Origin: a virus
Reading direction: 5' to 3' (one strand)
DNA length: 34,983 nucleotides
IMG/VR virus record: IMGVR_UViG_3300020196_000131
Location: 1-34,983 of that record
Made by a program: the position numbers and the translations under genes
The notes under the pieces: model-generated
What the model was told of the DNA's origin: nothing
The model's input: the letters and a program-made list of their open reading frames with translations, nothing else
The model's database searches: none
In this document: piece by piece, positions 1,089-26,477 of the stretch
How the letters are laid out: every line of letters starts with the position of its first letter
Position numbering within the stretch: the first letter of the stretch is position 1

Positions 1089-2066
1089 ATGTACGGTAAT
1101 AGCAACGCTAAAAATGGCTGGATGCCGGAAGGTCTACCGCATCTGCCCACGTACGAGAAGGCATTGGCGCATTGGGAATCGGTGCGTCCGTACACGAAGG
1201 GTGCAGACCAAGGCAAGCGACCAATGGGCGAGAAGCGTAGGTATTCACGCTCAATCATTCGCAAGGTCCAACAGTTAACCGGGGACGATGCAATCGTGCT
1301 TTCGTACTACAACAACGACGTAGTGCGACTGTATGCTGACGGGAGCAAGCGGTTCAGTACTTGTGGCTACCCAAGCATCTCGACCACGCACGTGCTCAAC
1401 GAGACGAGTACGACCAACGCTCTACGTTTCAGTAGGGAGAAAGGAAAGATCTATGCTGTTTACAAGGGCACTTTTTACTGCATGCCTGATCGTGGGTATG
1501 TGGAAGTATCCGCAAGCGGTGCGATCACAGGCTACGAGTGCGAGTCTCAGCACACCATTTGCTTTGATGCGATGAAAGCAAAGAGAGATAAGTACGCCGC
1601 GTTCACCACGTACATGAAGGACATCCTGACAATCAGTCAGCATGTCGATGAGAACCCTAACACCGAGGATATGGAAGCGGTGTTCGTCGATATGCTCAGA
1701 GAGTTTCGATACGTGCCGGCATTGAAGAGCAACATCAGATCAGAGCGTGGTGTTAAGAATAGCCTTTGGGCATTGTTCGACTTGATCGACGAGGCGATGG
1801 GGCTAGAGCAGGAAGAAATGCTCAAGCGGTTCTATGTGATAGCACACAAGTTCTTTCCGTCGGTGGTGCTGGATAACTTCAACATCTACAAATGGAACAG
1901 ACCCCCCAATGCGGGAGATCGGTACGTACTTGCAGAAGATGCAGTCAAACATTTCCACGAGGTAATCAAGTATCGCTTTGCCGACGAGGTCTTCGAGAAG
2001 AAGAATGTAGCACCGAGGGATAAAGCAGTTCACGATTCAAACAAGCACTACTTCATTTTTAACTAA
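1089..2066 (+). CDS. Conserved phage protein of unknown function, 325 residues
   Basis: The start at ATG 1089 is set by the purine-rich aggggga just before it; the open frame running back to 987 is unsupported. Residues about 65-110 (AIVLSYYNNDVVRLYADGS ... STCGYPSISTTHVLNE) resemble an N-terminal beta-rich block common in uncharacterised phage proteins, in which a nucleobase-free 'VVxxYxDG ... GGWxTxTTxxRLN' pattern recurs. The C-terminal two thirds are charged and helical. No catalytic motif is evident. It lies immediately upstream of the AAA+/VWA pair and is probably cotranscribed with it, which may or may not mean shared function. Confidence 0.75.
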   Translation: MYGNSNAKNGWMPEGLPHLPTYEKALAHWESVRPYTKGADQGKRPMGEKRRYSRSIIRKVQQLTGDDAIVLSYYNNDVVRLYADGSKRFSTCGYPSISTTHVLNETSTTNALRFSREKGKIYAVYKGTFYCMPDRGYVEVSASGAITGYECESQHTICFDAMKAKRDKYAAFTTYMKDILTISQHVDENPNTEDMEAVFVDMLREFRYVPALKSNIRSERGVKNSLWALFDLIDEAMGLEQEEMLKRFYVIAHKFFPSVVLDNFNIYKWNRPPNAGDRYVLAEDAVKHFHEVIKYRFADEVFEKKNVAPRDKAVHDSNKHYFIFN

Positions 2067-2084: not shown

Positions 2085-3146
2085 ATGGAAATCAATCTCA
2101 GATCAGAAATGACCCTCAAAGAAGCCGAGGAGTTTATTCTTAGCGTGGGCAACGAGGTCAGCACCCATCTTGTAGGTCAGCCGGGTGTGGGCAAGACTGC
2201 TATGTACGAGCGCATCGTGGAGAAAACGGGATTCCGTGGCATCTACATCGACACCCCCAACACCGAGTTAGGTGACATTGGCATCCCCATGCCCAACCAT
2301 GAGACTAAGACAACGTTGCTCTATCCCAACGAGTATTGGGGCTTCCAGCATGGCGACCCATGTGTGATCTTCATCGACGAGTTCACCAAACCGTCCTCAC
2401 CTGCTGTACAAAACATGCTTCATCCTCTGCTAGCAGAACGTCGGCTAGGCGGGTTCAAACTGCACCCGGACTCCATCGTGATAACTGCCGGTAACAACAC
2501 GACCGACGGGGTAGGTGATATGTTGAAAGATCACTCGATCAACCGACTAACCATCTGCCCGATTGCCAACCCGACTGCCGAAGAGTGGCTCGAGTGGGCG
2601 GCATTGAACGGAGTAGCGCCCGAGGTGATGGCATGGGTTAAGGCTTATCCGCATTGCATGGCATCGTACAAAGACCCTGCTCAAGCAGATAATCCGTATA
2701 ACTTCAACCCGAAGAACCCAAAACGGTCATACTTTTCTCCACGTTCGGGCTATCGTAGTAGCAACATCATTAAAAAGCGTTCGCTTATCTCCCGTAACGC
2801 ATTGGTGACTGCGTTGAGTGGGACCATCGGTGATGCGGCGGCTCGGGACATGACGGCTTACGTCGAAGTTGCGGATACTCTGCCCATGTGGGAAGACGTT
2901 ATTACTAACCCACAAACGGCAATCGTGCCGACTTCACCAGCGGCTCTGTGCATCATGGCTTATGGTGCGGTGCAGAGGATAGACCGGGGCAACGTGGGCA
3001 AGTGGTTCGAGTACCTCAAGCGGACACCGAAAGAGTTGCAGTCTGTGTTTTGCTTGACTGCCGGCAAGCACCCCGAGAAGAAGCAAATCATGATGACATC
3101 TGGTTCGTTTGTGAATTGGATGCGTGAGAACCAATACTTGTTCTAG
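2085..3146 (+). CDS. MoxR/CobS-type AAA+ ATPase
   Basis: A 353-residue AAA+ ATPase. Visible motifs are Walker A GQPGVGKT (31-38), Walker B VIFIDEF (94-100), a sensor-1-like ITAGNNTTDGVGD, an arginine-finger-like HSINRL, and a C-terminal SPRSG close to the TPRSW sensor-2 signature of MoxR proteins. MoxR ATPases form hexameric rings that remodel protein complexes, usually with a VWA-domain partner; such a partner is encoded just downstream (3341). Phage copies are often labelled cobS by similarity to the cobaltochelatase subunit, but no other cobalamin gene is nearby, so I prefer a chaperone-like role. The start follows aggaaagg. Confidence 0.93.
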   Translation: MEINLRSEMTLKEAEEFILSVGNEVSTHLVGQPGVGKTAMYERIVEKTGFRGIYIDTPNTELGDIGIPMPNHETKTTLLYPNEYWGFQHGDPCVIFIDEFTKPSSPAVQNMLHPLLAERRLGGFKLHPDSIVITAGNNTTDGVGDMLKDHSINRLTICPIANPTAEEWLEWAALNGVAPEVMAWVKAYPHCMASYKDPAQADNPYNFNPKNPKRSYFSPRSGYRSSNIIKKRSLISRNALVTALSGTIGDAAARDMTAYVEVADTLPMWEDVITNPQTAIVPTSPAALCIMAYGAVQRIDRGNVGKWFEYLKRTPKELQSVFCLTAGKHPEKKQIMMTSGSFVNWMRENQYLF

Positions 3147-3155
3147 GAGATAAAT

Positions 3156-3344
3156 ATGTGGCATGAAGTTTCGGTTCCAAAAACGAGCGAGATGCATGGG
3201 GTATTGCTCTACGACACTAAGAAGGAAGAAGGGAAGGTTCGACTACTCCCAACACTTCCCGATGGGGTGGTGGGGTTAGACATCCTTTTGGATTGGATAA
3301 ACGATCTGAAAGAGGAATACAACGAGAGACTGAAAGGACTATGA
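3156..3344 (+). CDS. Hypothetical protein, 62 residues
   Basis: A short protein between the AAA+ gene and its VWA partner, with a good ribosome-binding site (aggagat, six bases before ATG 3156). It has a beta-like first half (MHGVLLYDTKKEEGKVRLLP) and a helical acidic end (GLDILLDWINDLKEEYNERL). Its stop overlaps the next start in ATGATGA. No family is recognised. Position suggests it belongs to the AAA+/VWA module. Confidence 0.65.
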   Translation: MWHEVSVPKTSEMHGVLLYDTKKEEGKVRLLPTLPDGVVGLDILLDWINDLKEEYNERLKGL

Positions 3345-4618
3345 TGAAACTAACTGCTGAACAAAGAATTGAGCGTACGCACGTGACGCTCATGCGGCAC
3401 AAGGACTTCTGCTTATTTAGTGGGATGTTCATGATCGGCAAAGTCCAAGTGCTTGATGAGCCGATTACCGCAAGGACTAACGGGCGGGACGTTGACTACG
3501 GGCGCGAGTTCGTGGACATGCTCGATGACAAGATGCTTGCGTTCTTGGTGGTGCATGAGGCTATGCACAAAGCGTATCGCCACTTAACTACGTGGAAGGT
3601 ACTAGCGAAGGAAAACAAGCAATTGACCAACATAGCCGCAGATTACGTCATCAATCTTCAGATCCGGGACATGGACCCGGACGGGCATATGGTGATGATG
3701 CCGAGAGACAAAGACGGCAATGTGCTTGGCTTGATCGACGAGCAGTATCGTGGCATGGACACGAAGCAAGTCTATGATGCACTTAAACAGAATCAGGGAG
3801 GTGGCAAAGGTGAAGGACCGGATGGACCGACTGGAGAGAAGGGTGGAGGCGCGGGTCAAGGACAAAGTGACGAGTCGTCAGTATGTCCGGGTAAAGGGCA
3901 ACCGCAAGATTCCCTTGATGAGCATGACTGGGATGGGGCGGCAGAGTTGTCCGATGAAGAGAAGGACCGCCTAGAGAAAGAGGTCGATCATGGTCTGCGT
4001 GAAGGTGCTATCCTAGCAGGGAAGATGAAGGGGAATATTCCACGGGGTATCGAGGAAGTGCTTCACCCCCGAGTCGACTGGCGGGAAGCGTTGCGGGATT
4101 TCGTCAAGATCAATACCAAGGGTGGCGAGATCACTACATGGCGCAGACCCAATCGTAGGTTTCTCGGTGTCGACATCATTATGCCGAGCCTTCAGGGGCA
4201 AAAGGCAGAGACTATCGTGATAGGGACAGATACATCAGGGTCGATTGGTGGACCCGTCCTTGCTCAGTTCCTTGGCGAGATGGCGAACATCTGCGAAGAG
4301 GTTTCACCCGAAAGAGTTGAAATACTTTATTGGGACAGCCACGTGGCGAGCCATGAAACCTATGTTGGTTCTGAAGTAGCAATGATGATTAACTCAACCA
4401 AACCCCGTGGTGGTGGAGGCACCAACCCGGACTGTGTAGCGAAGTACATCATGGATAAGAAGATCGAGCCGCAATGCGTGGTCATGCTCACCGACGGGTA
4501 TTTCTACGGGCATGACGTACGTGTGTGGCAAGAGATGGGTGTGCCGGTGTTTTGGTGCGTTGTTAACAACAAAGCATTCAAGCCGGCGATTGGTCAATCA
4601 GTACTAGTGGAGATCTAA
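3341..4618 (+). CDS. VWA-domain protein with N-terminal metallopeptidase-like domain (CobT/DUF2201-like)
   Basis: A 425-residue protein with two domains. The N-terminal region (1-145) carries VVHEAMHKAYRH, an HExxH zinc-site signature at 72-76, matching the metallopeptidase-like domain found in front of DUF2201 VWA proteins. A glycine- and acid-rich linker (about 150-215) follows. The C-terminal VWA-like domain (about 290-420) has the metal-ion-dependent adhesion motif DTSGS at 297-301, then GGGGT (T361) and LTDG (D385). Such proteins partner with MoxR ATPases like the one at 2085. The start may be ATG 3341 or ATG 3344; both fall in the overlap with the previous stop. Its substrate is unknown. 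Confidence 0.9.
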   Translation: MMKLTAEQRIERTHVTLMRHKDFCLFSGMFMIGKVQVLDEPITARTNGRDVDYGREFVDMLDDKMLAFLVVHEAMHKAYRHLTTWKVLAKENKQLTNIAADYVINLQIRDMDPDGHMVMMPRDKDGNVLGLIDEQYRGMDTKQVYDALKQNQGGGKGEGPDGPTGEKGGGAGQGQSDESSVCPGKGQPQDSLDEHDWDGAAELSDEEKDRLEKEVDHGLREGAILAGKMKGNIPRGIEEVLHPRVDWREALRDFVKINTKGGEITTWRRPNRRFLGVDIIMPSLQGQKAETIVIGTDTSGSIGGPVLAQFLGEMANICEEVSPERVEILYWDSHVASHETYVGSEVAMMINSTKPRGGGGTNPDCVAKYIMDKKIEPQCVVMLTDGYFYGHDVRVWQEMGVPVFWCVVNNKAFKPAIGQSVLVEI

Positions 4619-4620
4619 AC

Positions 4621-4800
4621 ATGGAAACGAAGAATGCAGGAAAGAATGGTCGCGTGGGTGTCAGCCTCAGTAGCGATACAGCCAACGAGTTGCTCGAGAT
4701 CAAAGATGAGTTGGCGCAGAAACTCGGGGTAAACCTTTCGTTTACTCAGGTCGTCGAGTACTTGGTCAAGCAGTACAAGACAAGACAAAATGACCAATAG
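4621..4800 (+). CDS. Small ribbon-helix-helix-like protein, 59 residues
   Basis: A frame of 59 codons starts at ATG 4621, two bases after the VWA gene stop, and ends at TAG 4798-4800. The product has GRVGVSLSSDTANELLEIKD, then LAQKLGVNLSFTQVVEYLVK: a short strand followed by two helices, the pattern of CopG/Arc-type ribbon-helix-helix proteins, which bind DNA as dimers. A role as regulator of the surrounding operon is a natural inference, but no operator was identified. The upstream Shine-Dalgarno is modest (tggaga). It fills an otherwise empty gap of about 200 bases. Confidence 0.7.
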   Translation: METKNAGKNGRVGVSLSSDTANELLEIKDELAQKLGVNLSFTQVVEYLVKQYKTRQNDQ

Positions 4801-4832
4801 TCAACATGTCCCTATTAGCAAAGGAAACTAAA

Positions 4833-5693
4833 ATGGAATCAATCGGTATTGCAACAAGTTCGATGCTGGTCGAGTTGAACGTCTCATGCTGGACTGCCCG
4901 TAAGTTGGATAAGCGGGTGTCCGAGGAAGTCGATGCGGTCAAGAAAACCAAAGCGAGGGGCGGTAACTACCACAAGAATCTATTGGCTGGTAGCAAGAGC
5001 CTTGAGGATGTCAACAAGTATGCCGCTAGGATTCGCCTGTGGAATACGATGAACACCCTGCCTTGGTCCGACAAGGGTAGCCGACTCATCCCCATGAAGC
5101 ATTTCCTAGACTACAAGGCAGAGTTGAACAACCACGAAGCCGAGTTCAACAGACTTTGTCAGAAGTTTTTTGCTGAGTATCCAACGCTGATTTCTGCGGC
5201 GGCTTTCTCCTTGGGAGATATGTTTGACCGGGAAGAGTACCCCGAGGTAAATCACATCATTAACAAGTTTAGGTTCGTGTATTCGTTCTCTCCTGTGCCA
5301 ACGTCAGGCGATTTTCGTATCGACATCAACGAGGTAGCCAAAGCCGAATTGGTTGAGCAGTACGAGGCTAACTTCAAGAATCGTATCGAGGATGCCATGC
5401 GTGAGGTGTGGGACAGACTGCACGAGTGCCTCACACACATGAGTGATCGCTTGGCAAGCGACGAGGAAGGTAAGCGTAAGGGTTTCCACGCTACGATGCT
5501 AGGGAACGCTAAAGAGTTGATAGATCTACTTGATAAGTTGAACATCACGAAAGACCCGAAACTCGAGACCGCGCGTCGAGACTTGTCAACGGCTCTGCTA
5601 CTTGTCGATACAGACATGCTCAAGGATAGCGACGAGATACGCTTGCAGACTAAGAACAAGGTCGATGCAATCCTCTCCAAATTTAACTGGTAA
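4833..5693 (+). CDS. Conserved protein, possibly DUF3150-like, linked to the AAA+/VWA pair
   Basis: A 286-residue, mainly helical protein. The segment LNVSCWTARKLDKRVSEEV (about 14-32), followed by YHKNLLAG and a long C-terminal run of helices, recalls DUF3150-type proteins that sit beside CobS-like ATPase and CobT-like VWA genes in bacterial mobile elements. This assignment is from memory and tentative. Start 4833 is preferred over ATG 4806 because aaaggaa lies directly upstream of 4833, while nothing precedes 4806. It contains no catalytic motif and may be the adaptor or substrate of the AAA+/VWA machine. Confidence 0.8.
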   Translation: MESIGIATSSMLVELNVSCWTARKLDKRVSEEVDAVKKTKARGGNYHKNLLAGSKSLEDVNKYAARIRLWNTMNTLPWSDKGSRLIPMKHFLDYKAELNNHEAEFNRLCQKFFAEYPTLISAAAFSLGDMFDREEYPEVNHIINKFRFVYSFSPVPTSGDFRIDINEVAKAELVEQYEANFKNRIEDAMREVWDRLHECLTHMSDRLASDEEGKRKGFHATMLGNAKELIDLLDKLNITKDPKLETARRDLSTALLLVDTDMLKDSDEIRLQTKNKVDAILSKFNW

Positions 5694-6606: not shown

Positions 6607-6634
6607 TTACCTAGTTTAATTTACTTTCCTACGA

Positions 6635-6672
6635 GGACATACTGACTGATCGTCAGTATGTCCTTTTTTTTT
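6635..6672 (+). terminator. Strong Rho-independent terminator
   Basis: A perfect 12-base-pair stem (6635-6646 with 6652-6663; arms ggacatactgac and gtcagtatgtcc) with a five-base loop is followed by nine T residues (6664-6672). It lies 28 bases after the last gene of the first unit and directly before a new promoter-like sequence. This is a textbook intrinsic terminator on the plus strand. Confidence 0.95.
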
Positions 6673-6683
6673 CGTCTACCCCC

Positions 6684-13994: not shown

Positions 13995-14384
13995 ATGGAC
14001 GTGTCAATTGAGAAGATCGTCACCACTTACATCAAGATGCGCGACACAAAGGATGCACTCTACAAAGAGTACACCGCAAAAGCTTCTGAGATCGAAGAGC
14101 AGATGACAATCTTGAAGCATAAGCTGATTGAGATCTCGAAAGAAACTGGCGTTACAAGCTTCTCCACGCCGAATGGTGTGGCGTACCGCACAGTGAAGAA
14201 TCGCTACTGGACTAACGACTGGGGAAGTTTCTACGACTTTATGCGTGAGAACGGTACGATGGAGTTGTTGGAGAAGAGGATACATCAGACGAACATGAAG
14301 GAGTTCTTGGAGAACAACCCCGATGCTCATCCTCCCGGCTTGAACATTGATAGTGAATATGAAATCACCATAAGGAGAAAGTAA
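13995..14384 (+). CDS. Conserved coiled-coil phage protein next to the ssDNA-binding gene
   Basis: A 129-residue protein after taaggag. The N-terminal half is a coiled coil (KDALYKEYTAKASEIEEQMT); then come TSFSTPNGVAYRTVKNRYWT, DWGSFYDFMRENG, MELLEKRIHQTNMKEFLE and PPGLN. This order (a short beta pair, a 'DW..F..F...N' helix, 'LLEKR' and 'PPG') is shared by phage proteins often found near recombination or ssDNA-binding genes. No enzymatic motif is visible. A structural or accessory replication role is inferred from position. Confidence 0.75.
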   Translation: MDVSIEKIVTTYIKMRDTKDALYKEYTAKASEIEEQMTILKHKLIEISKETGVTSFSTPNGVAYRTVKNRYWTNDWGSFYDFMRENGTMELLEKRIHQTNMKEFLENNPDAHPPGLNIDSEYEITIRRK

Positions 14385-18653: not shown

Positions 18654-18678
18654 CCCCGCCTAGTGCGGGGAATTTTTT
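18654..18678 (+). terminator. Terminator of the rightward genes at the convergence point
   Basis: A six-base-pair GC stem (ccccgc 18654-18659 with gcgggg 18665-18670, loop ctagt) is followed by aatttttt (T-run 18673-18678). It ends on the last base of the leftward giant gene's stop codon. On the minus strand the hairpin has no T-run after it, so it should act mainly on plus-strand transcription. The 69-base gap also holds a weak accatg/catggt inverted repeat (18610-18638). Confidence 0.85.
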
Positions 18679-21600
18679 CACTCCCTCCCGTACCTCATCA
18701 TCTGTAAAGCCTCAGGTATAAATTTCTTGCTGACTCTAGCGCCGATGTTATTGGCTTGCGCTTGATCCTCTGCTCTTTGATCAAAAGATTCTTGTATAGC
18801 CTTAGCGTCAATAGCAAACAATGGGTACTTTGCTGAAAATTCATTAGCTTCCTCTAATACGTCATTAAACGTATCAAAGTTATTCCTTTCCATCCACAAA
18901 CGGTTCATTAGAGCTTTTCTGCGGTTTTCAAGTTTTTGCTCTCTTTGAACCACTTCTATTGACCTCTTTTGTGCGGTGTTTAATCTTACTGGCTGAAGCC
19001 CAATACTTTGCATAGCTATTTCCCACGCCGAGAACTCATTAACTAGCACGTCACCCTTAGTAGTTTTACCACCTTCTTCTGCTAATCTTGCTGCTGTAAC
19101 AGGTTTAGCAAATAATGCAGGCGCTGATTTTTCAAAAGCACGCTGATATTGCCCTTCCTGCATAAGCCTATAAGCTTCAACCCAATTGAATGCTAGACCC
19201 ACAGTTGGCCCTGCGTTAGCAATCATCGCCTCTGTAAGGCTTTCCCGAACATCCGGTGAATATCGACCTTCTCGATAAAACATGGTTACAGGGTCAAGAC
19301 TGACGCGATCAGCAAAGTTACCCCCGGTTATTGTTGAAACCACTCCTTTTTGAATTGAGTCGCCGATAAAATCTCCTAAACTACCTGAGACTTCAGGGTT
19401 CATACCCATCTCAGCAAATAAATCACCGGCAGCACCACCAAGTTCTACTTGAACGTAGTTCTTTACCCAGTTTTCCCAGTCAAAGAACTCATCATCTTCG
19501 TCATCTGCAAACATATTTACTAGCACTCCAAGTCCAATACTGTAGAACGGGGATGCTTCATTCCCCCCTAGTAAATACGTGACGGCTAAAATTCCAGCCA
19601 GTCTACGTCTAGCCTCTTTACCAATTGCTTTGTGGTGAGCCTCGTATTCCCCCACTCTTTGCTTGATCACTGCCGGAGACACTTTGTCGTTAATTAGCTG
19701 CTCTTCATATTTTGCTAATAATTTTTTTCGTTCAAAAGGCCTATACAGACTAAATCCAAGCTTTAAGTTTCTGAGGAGAATGTAGGTAACAAGCACCGGG
19801 TACTGCTTAAATTTAAATATTATTGAACCAACGGGGCCTACAAAGTAGCGAGGTTTCATCTGACGACTAAAATCACCAAGGGAAGCCCTGACCATGTCTT
19901 TGGCTTCTGCCATCGCTAACTGAAATGCTTCTTCCGGAGTGTTCATGACGGGGTTACCTTGTGCATCCCTTTCAACAACACCCCGTGTGTCTTTCTTAGG
20001 CTCAGTAGTAAACTTCTCGTAAGCCATTTCAAACACCGTTATGGACACAACTTCACGGTTTAGCCTTTCTGTTTGGTGAAACAGCGAAGACATTATCTTT
20101 TTAACTGTCGCCATGTACCCCGTGTATAACGCAGATGGGGCTTCAGCGAGCATCATGAAGTCGTTCACCAGAGATATTTCGTATTGGCCCTCTTGTGCTA
20201 ACTCAAAAGCTGCTCGGTGTAGCACTGGTTCATTTTTAAAGCTATAGCCTTCTGCCAAAGAGGGAAACTTAACTTCTAAAAAATCTCCTTTTGCTAAAGG
20301 TTTAATCGTTCTAGTCGGAACCGTGCTGGTGTACCGAAGTATATTTTTAGTCATTAGCTTCGCTGTTCTATCATATCCGTACGTACCGCCGATGTATGGC
20401 AATGCAATCTGAGCCATACCTATAGTGTTTAGCATTGCGGAGAACGGGGCCGACAGCATAAAAAAGAACGTAGTTTCAGACAACCTACCAGCAACTTTTG
20501 CAGCAAAGCTAGTGTCCTCAGCGCTGAGAATCACAGGCATCCGTTTTTCTAACTCAATAACAAAGTCCCTGTACACTTCTTTTTCGGACCTGCTAAGTAA
20601 CGGGTTGTTTCTAATGTCGTCAAGAGCATTAGTAATATTATTATGCAACTTGTCAGAAAATTTAAACCGTGATTGCTGGTAGGCACTGTGAATCGCTGAC
20701 GTAGAAAACACGCGAAGCATGTCTTCGCTAGCACCTTGAATATTTTTACGATTAATAAACATCTTGCGCATACTTTGTTGCGGCAAGAGGACATAAAGCA
20801 GTTGATTAATATTATCTTTTAGTTCTTTTTTAATTTCATCTCTCTCAAACCTTTTTTCAACCTCTTCTTTTGTAGGCGTGCGATTTAGTTCTTTTTGCAA
20901 GACTTTTTCAGCCGCGTCGTATTGAGCTTTAGTGGGGGGAGTTGTTATATTTCCTATAGAATCTACAAGGTCTTGTACTTCTTTTAACACTCCTGGAGCA
21001 TCACGATTTTTTGAAAATATTTCTGAAACTCCATTGCCGGGGTAAACCGAACCGACTAAGGCTCGCTGTTGTGCGTTACCCTCACTTAGCTCATTAACGC
21101 GGTTGTTCATCGCTAAGTTTCGTGCGTCAGCACTTTCATACTCGTAAAACTCTTTAAAATTACCAGAGCCAACTTGGAAAAAGAATTCTCCAAACCTACG
21201 CAGAGGGAAATAAGGCGAAACAAGTTTGTCTGGGCCAAACTGCGCAGCAATCTCTGCTAACGATTTTTCTTTTTCTTGTTGAGACAGAGAGCTATTGTTT
21301 ACCCGGTCTTCTAACTCCTTAATCATCCGCTCAACTGATTTTTTATAAAAGTCACGAACGTCACGGTATATTTGTTTAAACTCTGGTTTAAGAATAGCCC
21401 ACGCCTGTAATAGTGCAGCGTTTACAGGTTGGCCTTTAGGGTTATCAGGATCAAGACTTCGCATTGTTGCTTCAAGCATAATCCTAGCCATAATCTGTGA
21501 CTGCTTTGGATTCTTAAATTGAGCAACTGTCCACCGCCTAGATATGTCAGCTGCTTCATTCAGTATGCTTAATCTATATTCGATCATTTTTTCAATGAGT

Positions 21601-24600
21601 CGAATCGTACCGATTATCTGTGGAAACTTGTCTTTGGTTATTTCGGCAAGATGGCTGAGGTTCATAAATCCCAAAACAACTTGTCTAAGCTGAGTATTCC
21701 TAGCGTCCCAAAAACTACTACCCATTATTTTAATTGCTTTGCTCCACGTCATACGCCCTGTAAGAGCGAGATTTGCGGTGCCAATATAACTTTGGGTGGT
21801 TTGTTCTTGGGTACGTGAAGTTTGGGGGGTACTAGTAGGACCCTGCACTCTTTTACCCCGCTTACCCCCGGCAAACCTCGGCTGCGCTGCAAAGGGTGCT
21901 CCAGTACGCACCGCTGAGAAAATCTTAGTTGCTTCCGCCATGGCGTTGCCCGCCAAGTTATCTAAGCCAAACGCTCTGAGGATTGCTTTTACCAATCTAC
22001 TTAAAAAGGGCGTTTTCTTAGGCTCGTACTTAAGGCCTTTAAGAAGCTCTTGGAACTTCTTGTTAGTAAATACTTCTGAGATAAATTCGTAGATGTTGGT
22101 CATGCCGTATGGCTCTTTGCCAAGCTTTTCTACGGCGTAGTTATACATCTTGGTGAGTTCTTCTACGGCTTCGCGTTGGCCCGGAGTTAACTCTTGTTTG
22201 TTAGTGCCATAAGTATTTAGAACATATTCGGTCGCGGCGTGGACAACCTCGTGCAAAAAGACCCGGTAGCTTTTACCTGTCCGCGTATTGGTATTAAGAG
22301 TGATCTCGTCAAATTGGGGGGAATAAGCACCGGGGGCTGTTAAGCCCTCAATGGATTTGTCGTACGCTTCAAAAACTGTTTGGAATTCGGCGGCGACAGG
22401 GCCAAGGTTGTAGTTTGGTTTCTGTAGTTCCGCAAGACCTTTTGACACAGCCTCTAAAGATTCAGAACGGTCATAATTCTTGAAGTACTTATCGTAGACC
22501 TGCGGATAATGCATTTCCACGTAACGAAATAAACGCTTCTGTTGCTGCGCTGACACACTATCAATCGAGCGGCGAACCAAGTCACGCCCGTTGTTAAAAC
22601 TTATGTTTGTTGGTAGCTTAAGGTCTAAAAGCGCTTTTGCTAGGTCAGCAGAAAAACCAGTTAGCTTCTGAGACGCAATCCGTAACGCACCATTTAGGTC
22701 ATTGTTGGATATAGCCGAGACCATTGTCGGGTGGATGTCCCCGACTTTAAACTCTAACAAAGCAACCTTTTGGTCTAAATCAGCTATCGTGTCGTCAACG
22801 TTAGCAAGAAAATCAACCGCTTTTGCGGAAAGTAAATAGTTGACAAGGTCTACGCCATCTCTAGGTGCCTCCCCTTTTAGTAAGTCGTCAAGGGTTTTGT
22901 GTACCGCATAATTATTGTCAAACCCAAAAGTATCTTTTAAAGCTTCAAACAACTTACGCACAGCGGATTTAAACCTTTCCCACCCACTTCCAAGTTTAGC
23001 GGCAAAGAGTTTTTCAGCGTTAACCGCCCAGAACTCTGATGGGTTTACGTATTGATAGAACTCATACGAAGGCATCGCTTTAACAGCAACAGCCAAAGAC
23101 TCTGGACTAGGATTGTCTAAAAAGTTCATCACCTTGTGGAAAAACGCTTGGCTTTTTAGATCGGTGTGCTTTTGAATAGCTTTTTGAAACGCTCTATGAT
23201 AAGCGTTTATTATGGCTTCTTTCGCTTCCTTGGTCATCATCTGCTCAAGGGAGTGCATCAATTCATGGCGTATGGTGGAAGGATTAAACGCACCTTTTGT
23301 GCCAATATAAAGACGAACTAACCTTTCAACCGGGATATACATACCGGCTATATTATCTTGGCCTATCCCTGGAGATACGACAGATAAACGAAGTCCCTCA
23401 AGAACTTTTGGAAATCTACTATAAACTTTTTGAATTACTTCAAATACTTGAGAAGAAATAGCTGGTTCTCTGAAAACACCAGTCCCATCCATAGCGTTTC
23501 GGCCATGATTAAGAAAGTTTTCAGCAGATACTACTTTATCGCTATACGCTCTAAGAGCAGCTTTTAAGTTTTTAATTAACCTATTTAATTCATTAAGAAG
23601 CCGTTGTTTTTCAATGCTCGACCCATAGTTGCGAATACTTTCTACCAACGATGCTTTCTTTTGACCTAGGGAAGCTAACTCTTCAATGATTTGGTTTTTA
23701 GAGTCCTTAATACCGTCATCAATTTGTTCTTGCGTTACAGTCGGAACTTCACCTGTATCGATATCTTGTAGAGAGATGTCTTCATCTCTAGCCGGACGGA
23801 TCCCACGTTTTTGTTTTGGGATTGAATAAAACTCTGCTTTTTCAAAAAGCTCTTCGGCTAAAGAGTCAAATTCTTCTTTTGTTGTAGGCTGAAAAACATC
23901 GTTGTCAACAACAAAAAAGACATCTGAGTCTCCGTCAATAAAAACTTCTTCAGCCTCAACATCATTTGAAAGGCGAGTTCCTCTTTCTCTTACCTCTTTA
24001 GCTTCAATTTTTTGAGTTGCATCCAGTACAGTAGCGCCGCCTTTTTCAGTCAACAGCGATTGCTTACCTTCTCGGCGTTTCTCAACTCCACGGATGCGGT
24101 TCTCTATTTTTTCAACTTCTCCAAGAGCTTCCCTAAACGCCTGTTCGCTGCCCAACCCATAAAAGAATTTAATTCGTTCCGCTTCTCGTTTGCGCAAAGC
24201 CTGTACATAATCATCAGCAACTTTTTTGCTTACGTTGCGGGATTCTTGGATTTTCTTAGAAGCTTCATTAGGGTTATCAAGCCCTTTACGCTTATAATCT
24301 TCTGCAAGGGCTTCTTCGTACGTCTGTGTTGGTTCTTCCGTTGTTCCTTCAGGTGCAGTAGTTGCTGCTGGTGCCGTTTCAGCAGTTTTTGCTTCAGTCG
24401 GCGCTGCTTCTTTCTCTTTAGTTAGCCTAGGCAATAACCTCCGAGCAAACATCTCTGCATCAAATTTGTTATCTAGGTTCTCATTGATCGCATCTTTTGC
24501 TAGTCCTAAGCTATCGTGGCTCGTATCGCCCCTACCAATTCTATTGAGCGCTTGGTTCTCAGGGCTTTGGGCTTTCCAAAAAGTCTCGGAGCCTTCTTGT

Positions 24601-26477
24601 ACTTTATAGAATTTGAACCCCTTGTAGCTTTTTACATCGCCTACGATGTTCCCCGAAACACCCTCAACGTTTAAAGGCTGTTTGGATATATCAGCCATCA
24701 TTTGCTTGGCTGTATTTATTTGATCTTTTGGTTTTAATGCACCTGTTGTTGGCTCTTCTCGTGCTCCAACGCTAGCAGCAGCCCCGACACCCTCACCCAA
24801 TCCTGTTGGTTCAGTTCTTGCAGGTGCTCCGGTAACTCCTGCGGCAGCTTCTTCTCCGCTAGGCACAGAAACAGGAGGCTTACGTCCTCCAGACTCAGCT
24901 CGTAAACGTCGGGTTTTCTCTTGGGTAAATTCATATAGCGCCTCTAACGTTTCAATATCAGTTGGCGGTCGACCTAATTTTTTCTTAAGCTTTATGTCTA
25001 TTAATTTTTTAGCTTCGAGGGGAGTAGCTTGGGCTTCTTCGGGGAACTCAGCGATTGCCTTTTGAAGTTGTTCTTTTTTAGCAGTCTCTTCAGCAAACAA
25101 ATCTTTTTCGCCGGCAAGCCCAAGATCGACCCCACCTGCCTCAGGCTTATCCTCAACTAATTCAAACCTAGCCCGTGCATATGCATCATCCATCGAGATG
25201 GTTTGGCCGTCATCGCTAAACTCGCCTATGATTTCATTCGCACGGGCTAGTATGGACTCTTCTAATTCAATCTCTTCGGCGTTTAGTTTGTCGAGATCGG
25301 CGATTGCCTTATCTTCTTCAGAAAGCTTCTTGATCTCCTTGACTCTTTGGTAAGTGCCGATTGCTTCAAACGGGCCAGTTACTGTTTCACCTGCCATCTC
25401 TGCTATTACAGCAGCAGGATTAGGAACTTCTCCGATAGCCAAGGATCCCGCAGCCTCACCCGCACCGCCAAGACCAGCTTGGGTACCGACTTCTTTGACA
25501 AACTCTTTGGCAGCGACAAAAGCAGGCTTGCCAGTTTTAAGTGCTTCAATAATTTTGTTGGCAGCAGAACCCGCAGTCTTTAAAGACACCGCATCAAAGA
25601 CGCCAATGACTCCTGACCTAATGGATGCGTTTTTCCAAGCTTCGTCATGGCTTTCGCCTTTCTGCAACCGGTCAACATACTCGTTACCGAACTGAGTAGC
25701 AGCCGATCCTAGACCTCCAGCCTGTGCCGCCGCTGTTGGGTTTTGCGCAGCGAGCCTACCTATCAAAGCAGTAGATACCATGTACGCCATCGCCGGTAGA
25801 GACTCAGCGCCCAAGTCGGCAATAACTCCAACCGGATTAGAAAACAACGCCGCCCCAGCCTCTTTAGCAGACTCCATAAACGTGAGGTCATCCCCCATCG
25901 CTGCTTTAAGCCGTGCGGTTTCGGGGCGCAAGGGGCTTGCAAGTTGTCTTTCCTGCGCTTGTTTTTGGAATTCAGCGATATCTTGAGCGTACTGTCCAGC
26001 CTCTCGCTTATTACGCTCGTATCTTTCTCGGACTTCTGGAGGAGCTAAGGGTACTCCGGGGCCACCATATTCTTCTTCATCCTTAAGCATCGCCCCACGG
26101 GAAATGGCGAACGCCTCACCTTTGGTATTGGCACGAAAGCTCTCATATCCAGAAATCAAAGCGTCTTTGGCGTAGCGGTAGTTCCTAGCAAGGAAGCCCT
26201 CGTCTTCAGAAACAGTTGACGCTACCGGTGCTACCGGCAGTTGTGGGATTACTGGTGCGGGTTTACCCTTAGCAACCGGACTTACAGTCGGCTCGGTTTC
26301 TTCCTGTGGTGGAGGTGCCGCAACCCCAAACCGTTGACGTATTGCTTCCTGTGTTGCTGGATTAGCGGTTACAAAATTTTCATCTTGCGGAGCATACCTC
26401 TCAAATATAGCTCGTTTAGTAGCTTCGTTTGCATTAATGTAGTTTGGATCATTTAAGATCTCACGTAAACTAAGCAT
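18678..26477 (-). CDS. Giant polyvalent inner-virion-type protein with two zincin modules and LPD38-like end
   Basis: A 2599-residue protein. The N-terminus repeats 'Y..AN.AT..AI..R' (residues 11-50), a pattern at the front of phage polyvalent proteins. Regions about 400-850 and 860-960 are charged and coiled-coil-like. Two metallopeptidase-like modules follow: RHELMHSLEQ (HExxH 1071-1075, SEF at about 1147-1149) and HEVVHAATEY (1409-1413, YEFISE at about 1463-1468), each trailed by a short helical segment. Hydrophobic helices occur near 230-285, 1990-2025 and 2270-2320. The end (IIFKFKQYPVLVTYILLRNL onward, about 2215-2599) resembles LPD38. Such proteins are carried in the capsid and ejected with the DNA. 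Start ATG 26477 follows gaggg and overlaps the upstream stop (TAATG). Confidence 0.88.
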   Translation of the reverse strand: MLSLREILNDPNYINANEATKRAIFERYAPQDENFVTANPATQEAIRQRFGVAAPPPQEETEPTVSPVAKGKPAPVIPQLPVAPVASTVSEDEGFLARNYRYAKDALISGYESFRANTKGEAFAISRGAMLKDEEEYGGPGVPLAPPEVRERYERNKREAGQYAQDIAEFQKQAQERQLASPLRPETARLKAAMGDDLTFMESAKEAGAALFSNPVGVIADLGAESLPAMAYMVSTALIGRLAAQNPTAAAQAGGLGSAATQFGNEYVDRLQKGESHDEAWKNASIRSGVIGVFDAVSLKTAGSAANKIIEALKTGKPAFVAAKEFVKEVGTQAGLGGAGEAAGSLAIGEVPNPAAVIAEMAGETVTGPFEAIGTYQRVKEIKKLSEEDKAIADLDKLNAEEIELEESILARANEIIGEFSDDGQTISMDDAYARARFELVEDKPEAGGVDLGLAGEKDLFAEETAKKEQLQKAIAEFPEEAQATPLEAKKLIDIKLKKKLGRPPTDIETLEALYEFTQEKTRRLRAESGGRKPPVSVPSGEEAAAGVTGAPARTEPTGLGEGVGAAASVGAREEPTTGALKPKDQINTAKQMMADISKQPLNVEGVSGNIVGDVKSYKGFKFYKVQEGSETFWKAQSPENQALNRIGRGDTSHDSLGLAKDAINENLDNKFDAEMFARRLLPRLTKEKEAAPTEAKTAETAPAATTAPEGTTEEPTQTYEEALAEDYKRKGLDNPNEASKKIQESRNVSKKVADDYVQALRKREAERIKFFYGLGSEQAFREALGEVEKIENRIRGVEKRREGKQSLLTEKGGATVLDATQKIEAKEVRERGTRLSNDVEAEEVFIDGDSDVFFVVDNDVFQPTTKEEFDSLAEELFEKAEFYSIPKQKRGIRPARDEDISLQDIDTGEVPTVTQEQIDDGIKDSKNQIIEELASLGQKKASLVESIRNYGSSIEKQRLLNELNRLIKNLKAALRAYSDKVVSAENFLNHGRNAMDGTGVFREPAISSQVFEVIQKVYSRFPKVLEGLRLSVVSPGIGQDNIAGMYIPVERLVRLYIGTKGAFNPSTIRHELMHSLEQMMTKEAKEAIINAYHRAFQKAIQKHTDLKSQAFFHKVMNFLDNPSPESLAVAVKAMPSYEFYQYVNPSEFWAVNAEKLFAAKLGSGWERFKSAVRKLFEALKDTFGFDNNYAVHKTLDDLLKGEAPRDGVDLVNYLLSAKAVDFLANVDDTIADLDQKVALLEFKVGDIHPTMVSAISNNDLNGALRIASQKLTGFSADLAKALLDLKLPTNISFNNGRDLVRRSIDSVSAQQQKRLFRYVEMHYPQVYDKYFKNYDRSESLEAVSKGLAELQKPNYNLGPVAAEFQTVFEAYDKSIEGLTAPGAYSPQFDEITLNTNTRTGKSYRVFLHEVVHAATEYVLNTYGTNKQELTPGQREAVEELTKMYNYAVEKLGKEPYGMTNIYEFISEVFTNKKFQELLKGLKYEPKKTPFLSRLVKAILRAFGLDNLAGNAMAEATKIFSAVRTGAPFAAQPRFAGGKRGKRVQGPTSTPQTSRTQEQTTQSYIGTANLALTGRMTWSKAIKIMGSSFWDARNTQLRQVVLGFMNLSHLAEITKDKFPQIIGTIRLIEKMIEYRLSILNEAADISRRWTVAQFKNPKQSQIMARIMLEATMRSLDPDNPKGQPVNAALLQAWAILKPEFKQIYRDVRDFYKKSVERMIKELEDRVNNSSLSQQEKEKSLAEIAAQFGPDKLVSPYFPLRRFGEFFFQVGSGNFKEFYEYESADARNLAMNNRVNELSEGNAQQRALVGSVYPGNGVSEIFSKNRDAPGVLKEVQDLVDSIGNITTPPTKAQYDAAEKVLQKELNRTPTKEEVEKRFERDEIKKELKDNINQLLYVLLPQQSMRKMFINRKNIQGASEDMLRVFSTSAIHSAYQQSRFKFSDKLHNNITNALDDIRNNPLLSRSEKEVYRDFVIELEKRMPVILSAEDTSFAAKVAGRLSETTFFFMLSAPFSAMLNTIGMAQIALPYIGGTYGYDRTAKLMTKNILRYTSTVPTRTIKPLAKGDFLEVKFPSLAEGYSFKNEPVLHRAAFELAQEGQYEISLVNDFMMLAEAPSALYTGYMATVKKIMSSLFHQTERLNREVVSITVFEMAYEKFTTEPKKDTRGVVERDAQGNPVMNTPEEAFQLAMAEAKDMVRASLGDFSRQMKPRYFVGPVGSIIFKFKQYPVLVTYILLRNLKLGFSLYRPFERKKLLAKYEEQLINDKVSPAVIKQRVGEYEAHHKAIGKEARRRLAGILAVTYLLGGNEASPFYSIGLGVLVNMFADDEDDEFFDWENWVKNYVQVELGGAAGDLFAEMGMNPEVSGSLGDFIGDSIQKGVVSTITGGNFADRVSLDPVTMFYREGRYSPDVRESLTEAMIANAGPTVGLAFNWVEAYRLMQEGQYQRAFEKSAPALFAKPVTAARLAEEGGKTTKGDVLVNEFSAWEIAMQSIGLQPVRLNTAQKRSIEVVQREQKLENRRKALMNRLWMERNNFDTFNDVLEEANEFSAKYPLFAIDAKAIQESFDQRAEDQAQANNIGARVSKKFIPEALQMMRYGRE

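Follow-up and report, generated by a model that had tools for sequence, protein, structure and literature searches.

The window analysed here is a whole virus record of 34,983 bases from an uncultured phage (IMG/VR record IMGVR_UViG_3300020196_000131), which is classed as linear and is probably a fragment. At positions 2085-5693, it contains five tightly packed plus-strand genes with intergenic gaps of 9, −4, 2 and 32 bases, in agreement with a first-pass annotation that had described five such genes with gaps of at most 32 bases. Three of these genes form the trio that is the subject of this study and encode a MoxR-clade AAA+ ATPase, a VWA protein with an HExxH site and a helical, DUF3150-like third protein. 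The first-pass annotation overlooked two accompanying genes, p326 and p299. The features of the locus are as follows:

1089-2066, plus strand: p326, accompanying phage gene, about 325 residues; no match and no known domain in a Pfam search
2085-3146, plus strand: AAA+ ATPase of the AAA_5, MoxR/midasin clade (N4 gp24 family), 353 residues
3156-3344, plus strand: 62-residue protein, optional; called from its open reading frame and the occurrence of its family in some loci
3341-4618, plus strand: protein with an HExxH metallopeptidase-like domain, a Gly/acidic linker and a VWA domain with a metal-ion-dependent adhesion site (MIDAS) (N4 gp25 family), 425 residues
4621-4800, plus strand: 59-residue protein, ribbon-helix-helix-like by residue pattern, optional, possible local regulator
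4833-5693, plus strand: DUF3150-like third component, helical, 286 residues
5707-6606, plus strand: p299, accompanying phage gene, 299 residues; no match and no known domain in a Pfam search
6633-6673, plus strand: intrinsic terminator, 14-bp stem and T-run, closing the transcription unit

The start codon of the VWA gene at 3341 overlaps the preceding stop codon as ATGA. For the third gene, a longer frame starts at 4806 and an alternative start lies at 4833; the latter is most likely, because a ribosome-binding site is found there and this position agrees with the starts in relatives. Since the terminator sits directly after p299, the transcription unit probably extends from p326 or the ATPase gene to p299. 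A search of phage records at the DNA level gave no match.

Profile searches of the five proteins, as the first-pass annotation had proposed, assigned the ATPase and the VWA protein to families. The ATPase matches AAA_5 above the Pfam cut-off (E value of 8.7e-8) and phrog_1297 over its full length (E value of 2.5e-51). It aligns with gp24 of phage N4, and the best solved relative of its profile is midasin (E value of 4.5e-35). The VWA protein matches DUF2201_N (E value of 8.8e-28; 98.1 bits against a cut-off of 23.2) and DUF2201 (E value of 2.1e-13; 50.9 bits against a cut-off of 26.4) in Pfam, as well as phrog_1314, the N4 gp25 family, over its full length (E value of 5e-79). These matches uphold the previously suggested pairing of a MoxR-clade ATPase with a VWA protein. 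The caution that cobS and cobT would be misleading names also holds, as no cobalamin gene was recognised in the window and the CobT domain PF06213 was not matched by the VWA protein, for which DUF2201_N and DUF2201 were the only Pfam matches at E ≤ 0.1. Both N4 gp25 (L006:6165-7307) and phrog_1314 are labelled “HNH endonuclease”; judged by its DUF2201_N and DUF2201 domains, with HExxH and VWA, this label looks wrong.

The residues expected to be active are present in both proteins. The ATPase has a Walker A motif (GQPGVGKT) and a Walker B motif (VIFIDE), and the P-loop was found by a strict pattern in 143 of 158 ATPase relatives. In the VWA protein, in which a functional domain is followed by a flexible Gly/acidic linker and then by the VWA domain, the MIDAS residues (DTSGS, GGGGT, LTDG) are accompanied by an HExxHxxxxH site (HEAMHKAYRH). 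In the alignment of VWA relatives, H73, E74, H77, H82 and the MIDAS residues are invariant, and the HExxHxxxxH site is retained in 160 of the 162 full-length relatives. Relative to one related locus (L016), the ratios of nonsynonymous to synonymous substitution rates (0.04 for the ATPase, 0.09 for the VWA protein and 0.12 for the third protein) indicate purifying selection. The intactness on which the first-pass annotation had argued against decay is thus matched by conservation in relatives, and by these sequence criteria the gene block is real and under selection, neither a chance arrangement nor decayed.

The third protein of the window scores below the curated cut-off for DUF3150 (PF11348; E value of 0.0039, 17.0 bits against 24.9). 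Of its relatives, 27 of 36 diverse ones match DUF3150 (best E value of 5.9e-7), and its AlphaFold2 model (predicted local distance difference test score, pLDDT, of 87.4) matches a viral DUF3150 protein with a template modelling (TM) score of 0.80 (E value of 7.7e-19). Because the relatives and the predicted fold match while its own Pfam score is sub-threshold, the protein is named DUF3150-like, as first proposed; by profile and model, it is a distant DUF3150 relative. A Foldseek comparison of the model with solved structures gave nothing (best E value of 0.4), and VIA-align rows were discounted, as their maximum Z of 8.8 over the helical part is ordinary for helical bundles. The C terminus carries a conserved F-x-W/F, and its last residue is Trp or Phe in 149 of 173 relatives, a pattern that may mark a docking tail. 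Relatives of this protein are encoded in at least 588 uncultured viral contigs, and no mention of DUF3150 was found in the papers searched.

To describe the neighbourhood of the trio in phages, viral contigs were scanned four times, which gave about 175 loci. Because some contigs had been fetched twice, the anchor proteins were used to group the loci at 90% identity, and the cluster counts leave out loci truncated at the end of a contig. Around the ATPase, the VWA gene and the third gene were each found in 38/38 clusters, p299 in 34/36 and p326 in 28/32. Around the third gene, the VWA gene was found in 50/50 clusters, the ATPase gene in 45/45, p299 in 48/50 and p326 in 33/37. The order ATPase-VWA-third occurs in 144 loci, ATPase-third-VWA in seven (four of them plasmids) and third-ATPase-VWA in six; p326 is also found in the permuted loci L082 and L089. 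That the three genes stay together through rearrangement speaks for a functional unit. Distance matrices, compared without a significance test, correlate at r of 0.78-0.90 within the trio and at 0.58-0.67 with the neighbouring PolA. Taken from these sequence comparisons, the three proteins very probably work as one remodelling machine.

The core of the proposed five-gene module therefore stands as a trio, and the micro-proteins do not belong to it. The 62-residue family is present in 5/35 and 13/47 loci, at times between the VWA gene and the third gene. The 59-residue family is present in 9/27 ATPase clusters and 17/34 third-gene clusters (90% identity, determinable cases) and lies mostly between the same two genes. 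Both genes are optional and outside the core. The ribbon-helix-helix call for the 59-residue protein is unconfirmed; no profile match was found in Pfam or in PDB sequences, and the resemblance is one of alignment pattern judged by eye.

Outside phages, the neighbourhood analysis showed that the trio is also kept in plasmids and cellular loci. The third protein was found in 44 plasmid records, and in the four plasmid neighbourhoods inspected, all from Burkholderiales, the order is ATPase-DUF3150-VWA with the genes adjacent. All three components are homologous to those of the window; these plasmids differ in gene order, in the lack of p326 and p299 and in their plasmid context (PRTRC, type IV secretion system). 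In bacterial and archaeal genome records, the order ATPase-DUF3150-VWA is seen in 55 of 73 loci, and 14 divergent cellular loci have the DUF3150 relative alone of the trio. In the four of these divergent loci that were scanned (L246, L252, L258 and L259), the gene for an ATPase of the classical AAA family (PF00004) precedes that for the DUF3150 protein. L259 also has, near the divergent DUF3150 gene, an ArdC-like anti-restriction gene and one for a DUF6094 methyltransferase. In the IncA plasmid pRA1, a NorQ/CbbQ-type ATPase, a DUF3150 protein (E value of 7.9e-89) and a CobT-like VWA protein with an HExxH site (HEAAH) surround bet and exo. This set has the same three roles as the phage trio, whereas its sequences are only distantly related, its ATPase and VWA proteins are of the NorQ/CbbQ and CobT types, and it is split around bet and exo. 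The CobS-like/DUF3150/CobT-like trio that the first-pass annotation had described for conjugative elements is thus found in pRA1 and in the Burkholderiales plasmids. Papers on SXT/R391 regulation and recombination contained nothing on these genes.

Parts of this arrangement resemble known systems. N4 gp24 and gp25 (Schitoviridae) belong to the same ATPase and VWA families and are likewise located on the replication side; unlike the window, the N4 genome has no detectable DUF3150-like gene, and unlike in N4, no virion RNA polymerase could be recognised in the window, a contig that is probably a fragment. NorQ-NorD and RavA-ViaA share the MoxR-clade ATPase and VWA adaptor but have no DUF3150 protein, and they are known to act on respiratory enzymes. 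Acidianus two-tailed virus encodes a MoxR ATPase with a VWA partner (p618/p892; PMC4124505); this virus is archaeal, and p618 is a virion protein tied to tail development. The VMAP and iSTAND ternary conflict systems combine MoxR, VWA and a third protein (PMC7159879), but that third component is VMAP or iSTAND rather than DUF3150, and the systems are cellular, not phage-borne. The N4 gp24/gp25 pair is listed as of unknown function in a roseophage paper (PMC2784036); the pair is already known, and the trio was found as annotation only. The trio links an unexplained phage gene pair with an unexplained plasmid gene set.

We lean towards a reading in which the trio is one ternary, ATP-driven remodelling machine that acts on the replication, recombination or establishment complex of the element itself. 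On family knowledge, the MoxR/midasin-clade ATPase would form a ring, and the VWA protein, whose active residues are intact in the window, would dock on this ring and relay movement powered by ATP, via its flexible linker, to the N-terminal zinc-site domain. In NorQD, ring activity remodels a linker of the VWA protein (PMC13036017), and the VWA protein of the window shares this layout of functional domain, linker and VWA domain. The DUF3150-like protein would be a dedicated third subunit or an adaptor through which the substrate is selected or presented, a role suggested by its obligate co-occurrence. In the final and weakest step, suggested by gene context, the substrate dismantled or matured in early to mid infection would be a complex, of protein or nucleoprotein, that serves the element in DNA replication, recombination or establishment. 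Beyond the terminator of the window lie genes for a Holliday-junction-resolvase-like nuclease, a family A DNA polymerase, an exonuclease, a helicase and a primase-like protein. Among 186 sequences (the loci and the window), the resolvase-like nuclease is present in 132 and PolA relatives in 121. A target in DNA replication or recombination is favoured because of these resolvase and PolA neighbours in phages and of bet and exo in pRA1, and this placement is tentative.

Several observations weigh against this interpretation. The shared gene context of the phages is partly due to common descent, in some permuted loci the flank that was retrieved contains neither the resolvase nor PolA, and the unit in the window is probably not co-transcribed with the replication genes because the terminator intervenes. 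The plasmid neighbours of the trio vary (PRTRC, type IV secretion system, methyltransferase), and a search around the Burkholderiales copies found no relatives of bet or exo. In whole-genome profile searches of N4, VBP47, CRP-7 and RHph_TM3_14A, the VWA gene was found and the third gene was not, although a very diverged homologue is conceivable. The first-pass annotation had counted an ATPase kept without the other genes as evidence against a module; in these four phages, this is the case for the third gene, whereas the VWA gene is kept. Because they keep the pair alone, the pair can work without the third gene, and thus either it is older or more independent than the trio or the third partner has diverged past detection. 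Conversely, Tunturi_3 has a third-gene relative, and no member of the ATPase or VWA families was detected there. In single-sequence searches of 50,697 phage records, which give lower bounds, the ATPase was matched in 547 and the third protein in only four.

The four phages with the pair alone also fit a machine of ATPase and VWA protein only, with the third gene as an unrelated hitchhiker. This is very unlikely, as the third gene is obligate in close relatives, adjoins the pair in plasmids, occurs in permuted orders and, as DUF3150, also pairs with other AAA classes. The first-pass annotation had suggested that the block could remodel a host complex, protect DNA ends or counter defence. The main rival is that, shortly after the DNA enters the cell, the machine takes apart a complex of host defence or regulation. 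The trio is shared by phages and conjugative plasmids, both of which meet defences on entry, MoxR-VWA ternary systems operate in conflict systems (PMC7159879), and the ArdC-like and methyltransferase genes of L259 would suit such a role. However, a search against a library of defence proteins gave no match, and ArdC lies beside one divergent locus only, in which the ATPase is of another class. Counter-defence genes also tend to be patchy in distribution, whereas the trio is present in all tested clusters of close phage relatives. Counter-defence or host takeover is judged unlikely.

Two further proposals appear weaker than counter-defence. The closest characterised MoxR-VWA pairs insert metals (PMC13036017), and the zinc-type site is almost invariant among VWA relatives, so that the machine could activate a phage or host enzyme in a NorQD- or chelatase-like manner, with the HExxH site handling the metal. 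No candidate metalloenzyme accompanies the trio across the phage and plasmid loci examined, and neither a cobalamin nor a porphyrin gene could be recognised in the window, which makes this proposal rather improbable. The model for a virion assembly chaperone is Acidianus two-tailed virus; a review reports interactions of its ATPase with both the VWA partner and virion proteins, and a presumed function in the development of the tail (PMC4124505). Such a role has little probability here, since the block shares its strand with the replication genes while the opposite strand carries the structural (head, tail) and lysis genes, and plasmids without virions bear the same trio. More generally, DUF3150 proteins might be third subunits of a mobile-element-specific class of AAA+ machines that remodel nucleoprotein complexes in the recombination or replication of invading DNA, with ATPase and VWA classes that differ among phages, megaplasmids and IncA plasmids; this extension is doubtful. 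With a three-protein core, order variants and two accompanying genes, the function is directly testable.

Additional observations were made on neighbouring genes and on annotations in relatives. The AlphaFold2 model of p299 has a pLDDT of 88.8; a sensor-domain assignment was not used, as the structural rows were weak (best Z of 5.5). The GGACA-CTGAC hairpin of the terminator likewise lies 3′ of p299 in several relatives. Relatives' copies of this hairpin (GGACA..CTGAC-loop-GTCAG..TGTCC-TTTTT) have stem changes, and 70 matches to a loose pattern for it were counted in the 3.6 Mb of retrieved loci, so that these phages may carry it as a recurrent element. The DUF3150-like gene of Tunturi_3 (L002:7803-8762), which is in a complete phage genome, is labelled “HNH endonuclease”. 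N4 gp30 (L006:8844-9785), annotated as gp30 only, matches Thy1 of the ThyX family (E value of 1.5e-10), and as a ThyX-type thymidylate synthase it was rejected as a hidden third component. In the test for a virion RNA polymerase of the Schitoviridae kind, the sole very large open reading frame of the window (18678-26477, minus strand) was found to encode a 2599-residue protein with DarB-like antirestriction matches (phrog_10089), and an N4-type polymerase was rejected for this gene. Virions may contain the DarB-like protein and inject it along with the DNA. Finally, a relative of a PHROG “minor head protein” (13995-14384), weakly similar to Pam3 gp33, lies between the helicase and primase-like genes in the replication block, and this label may be wrong.

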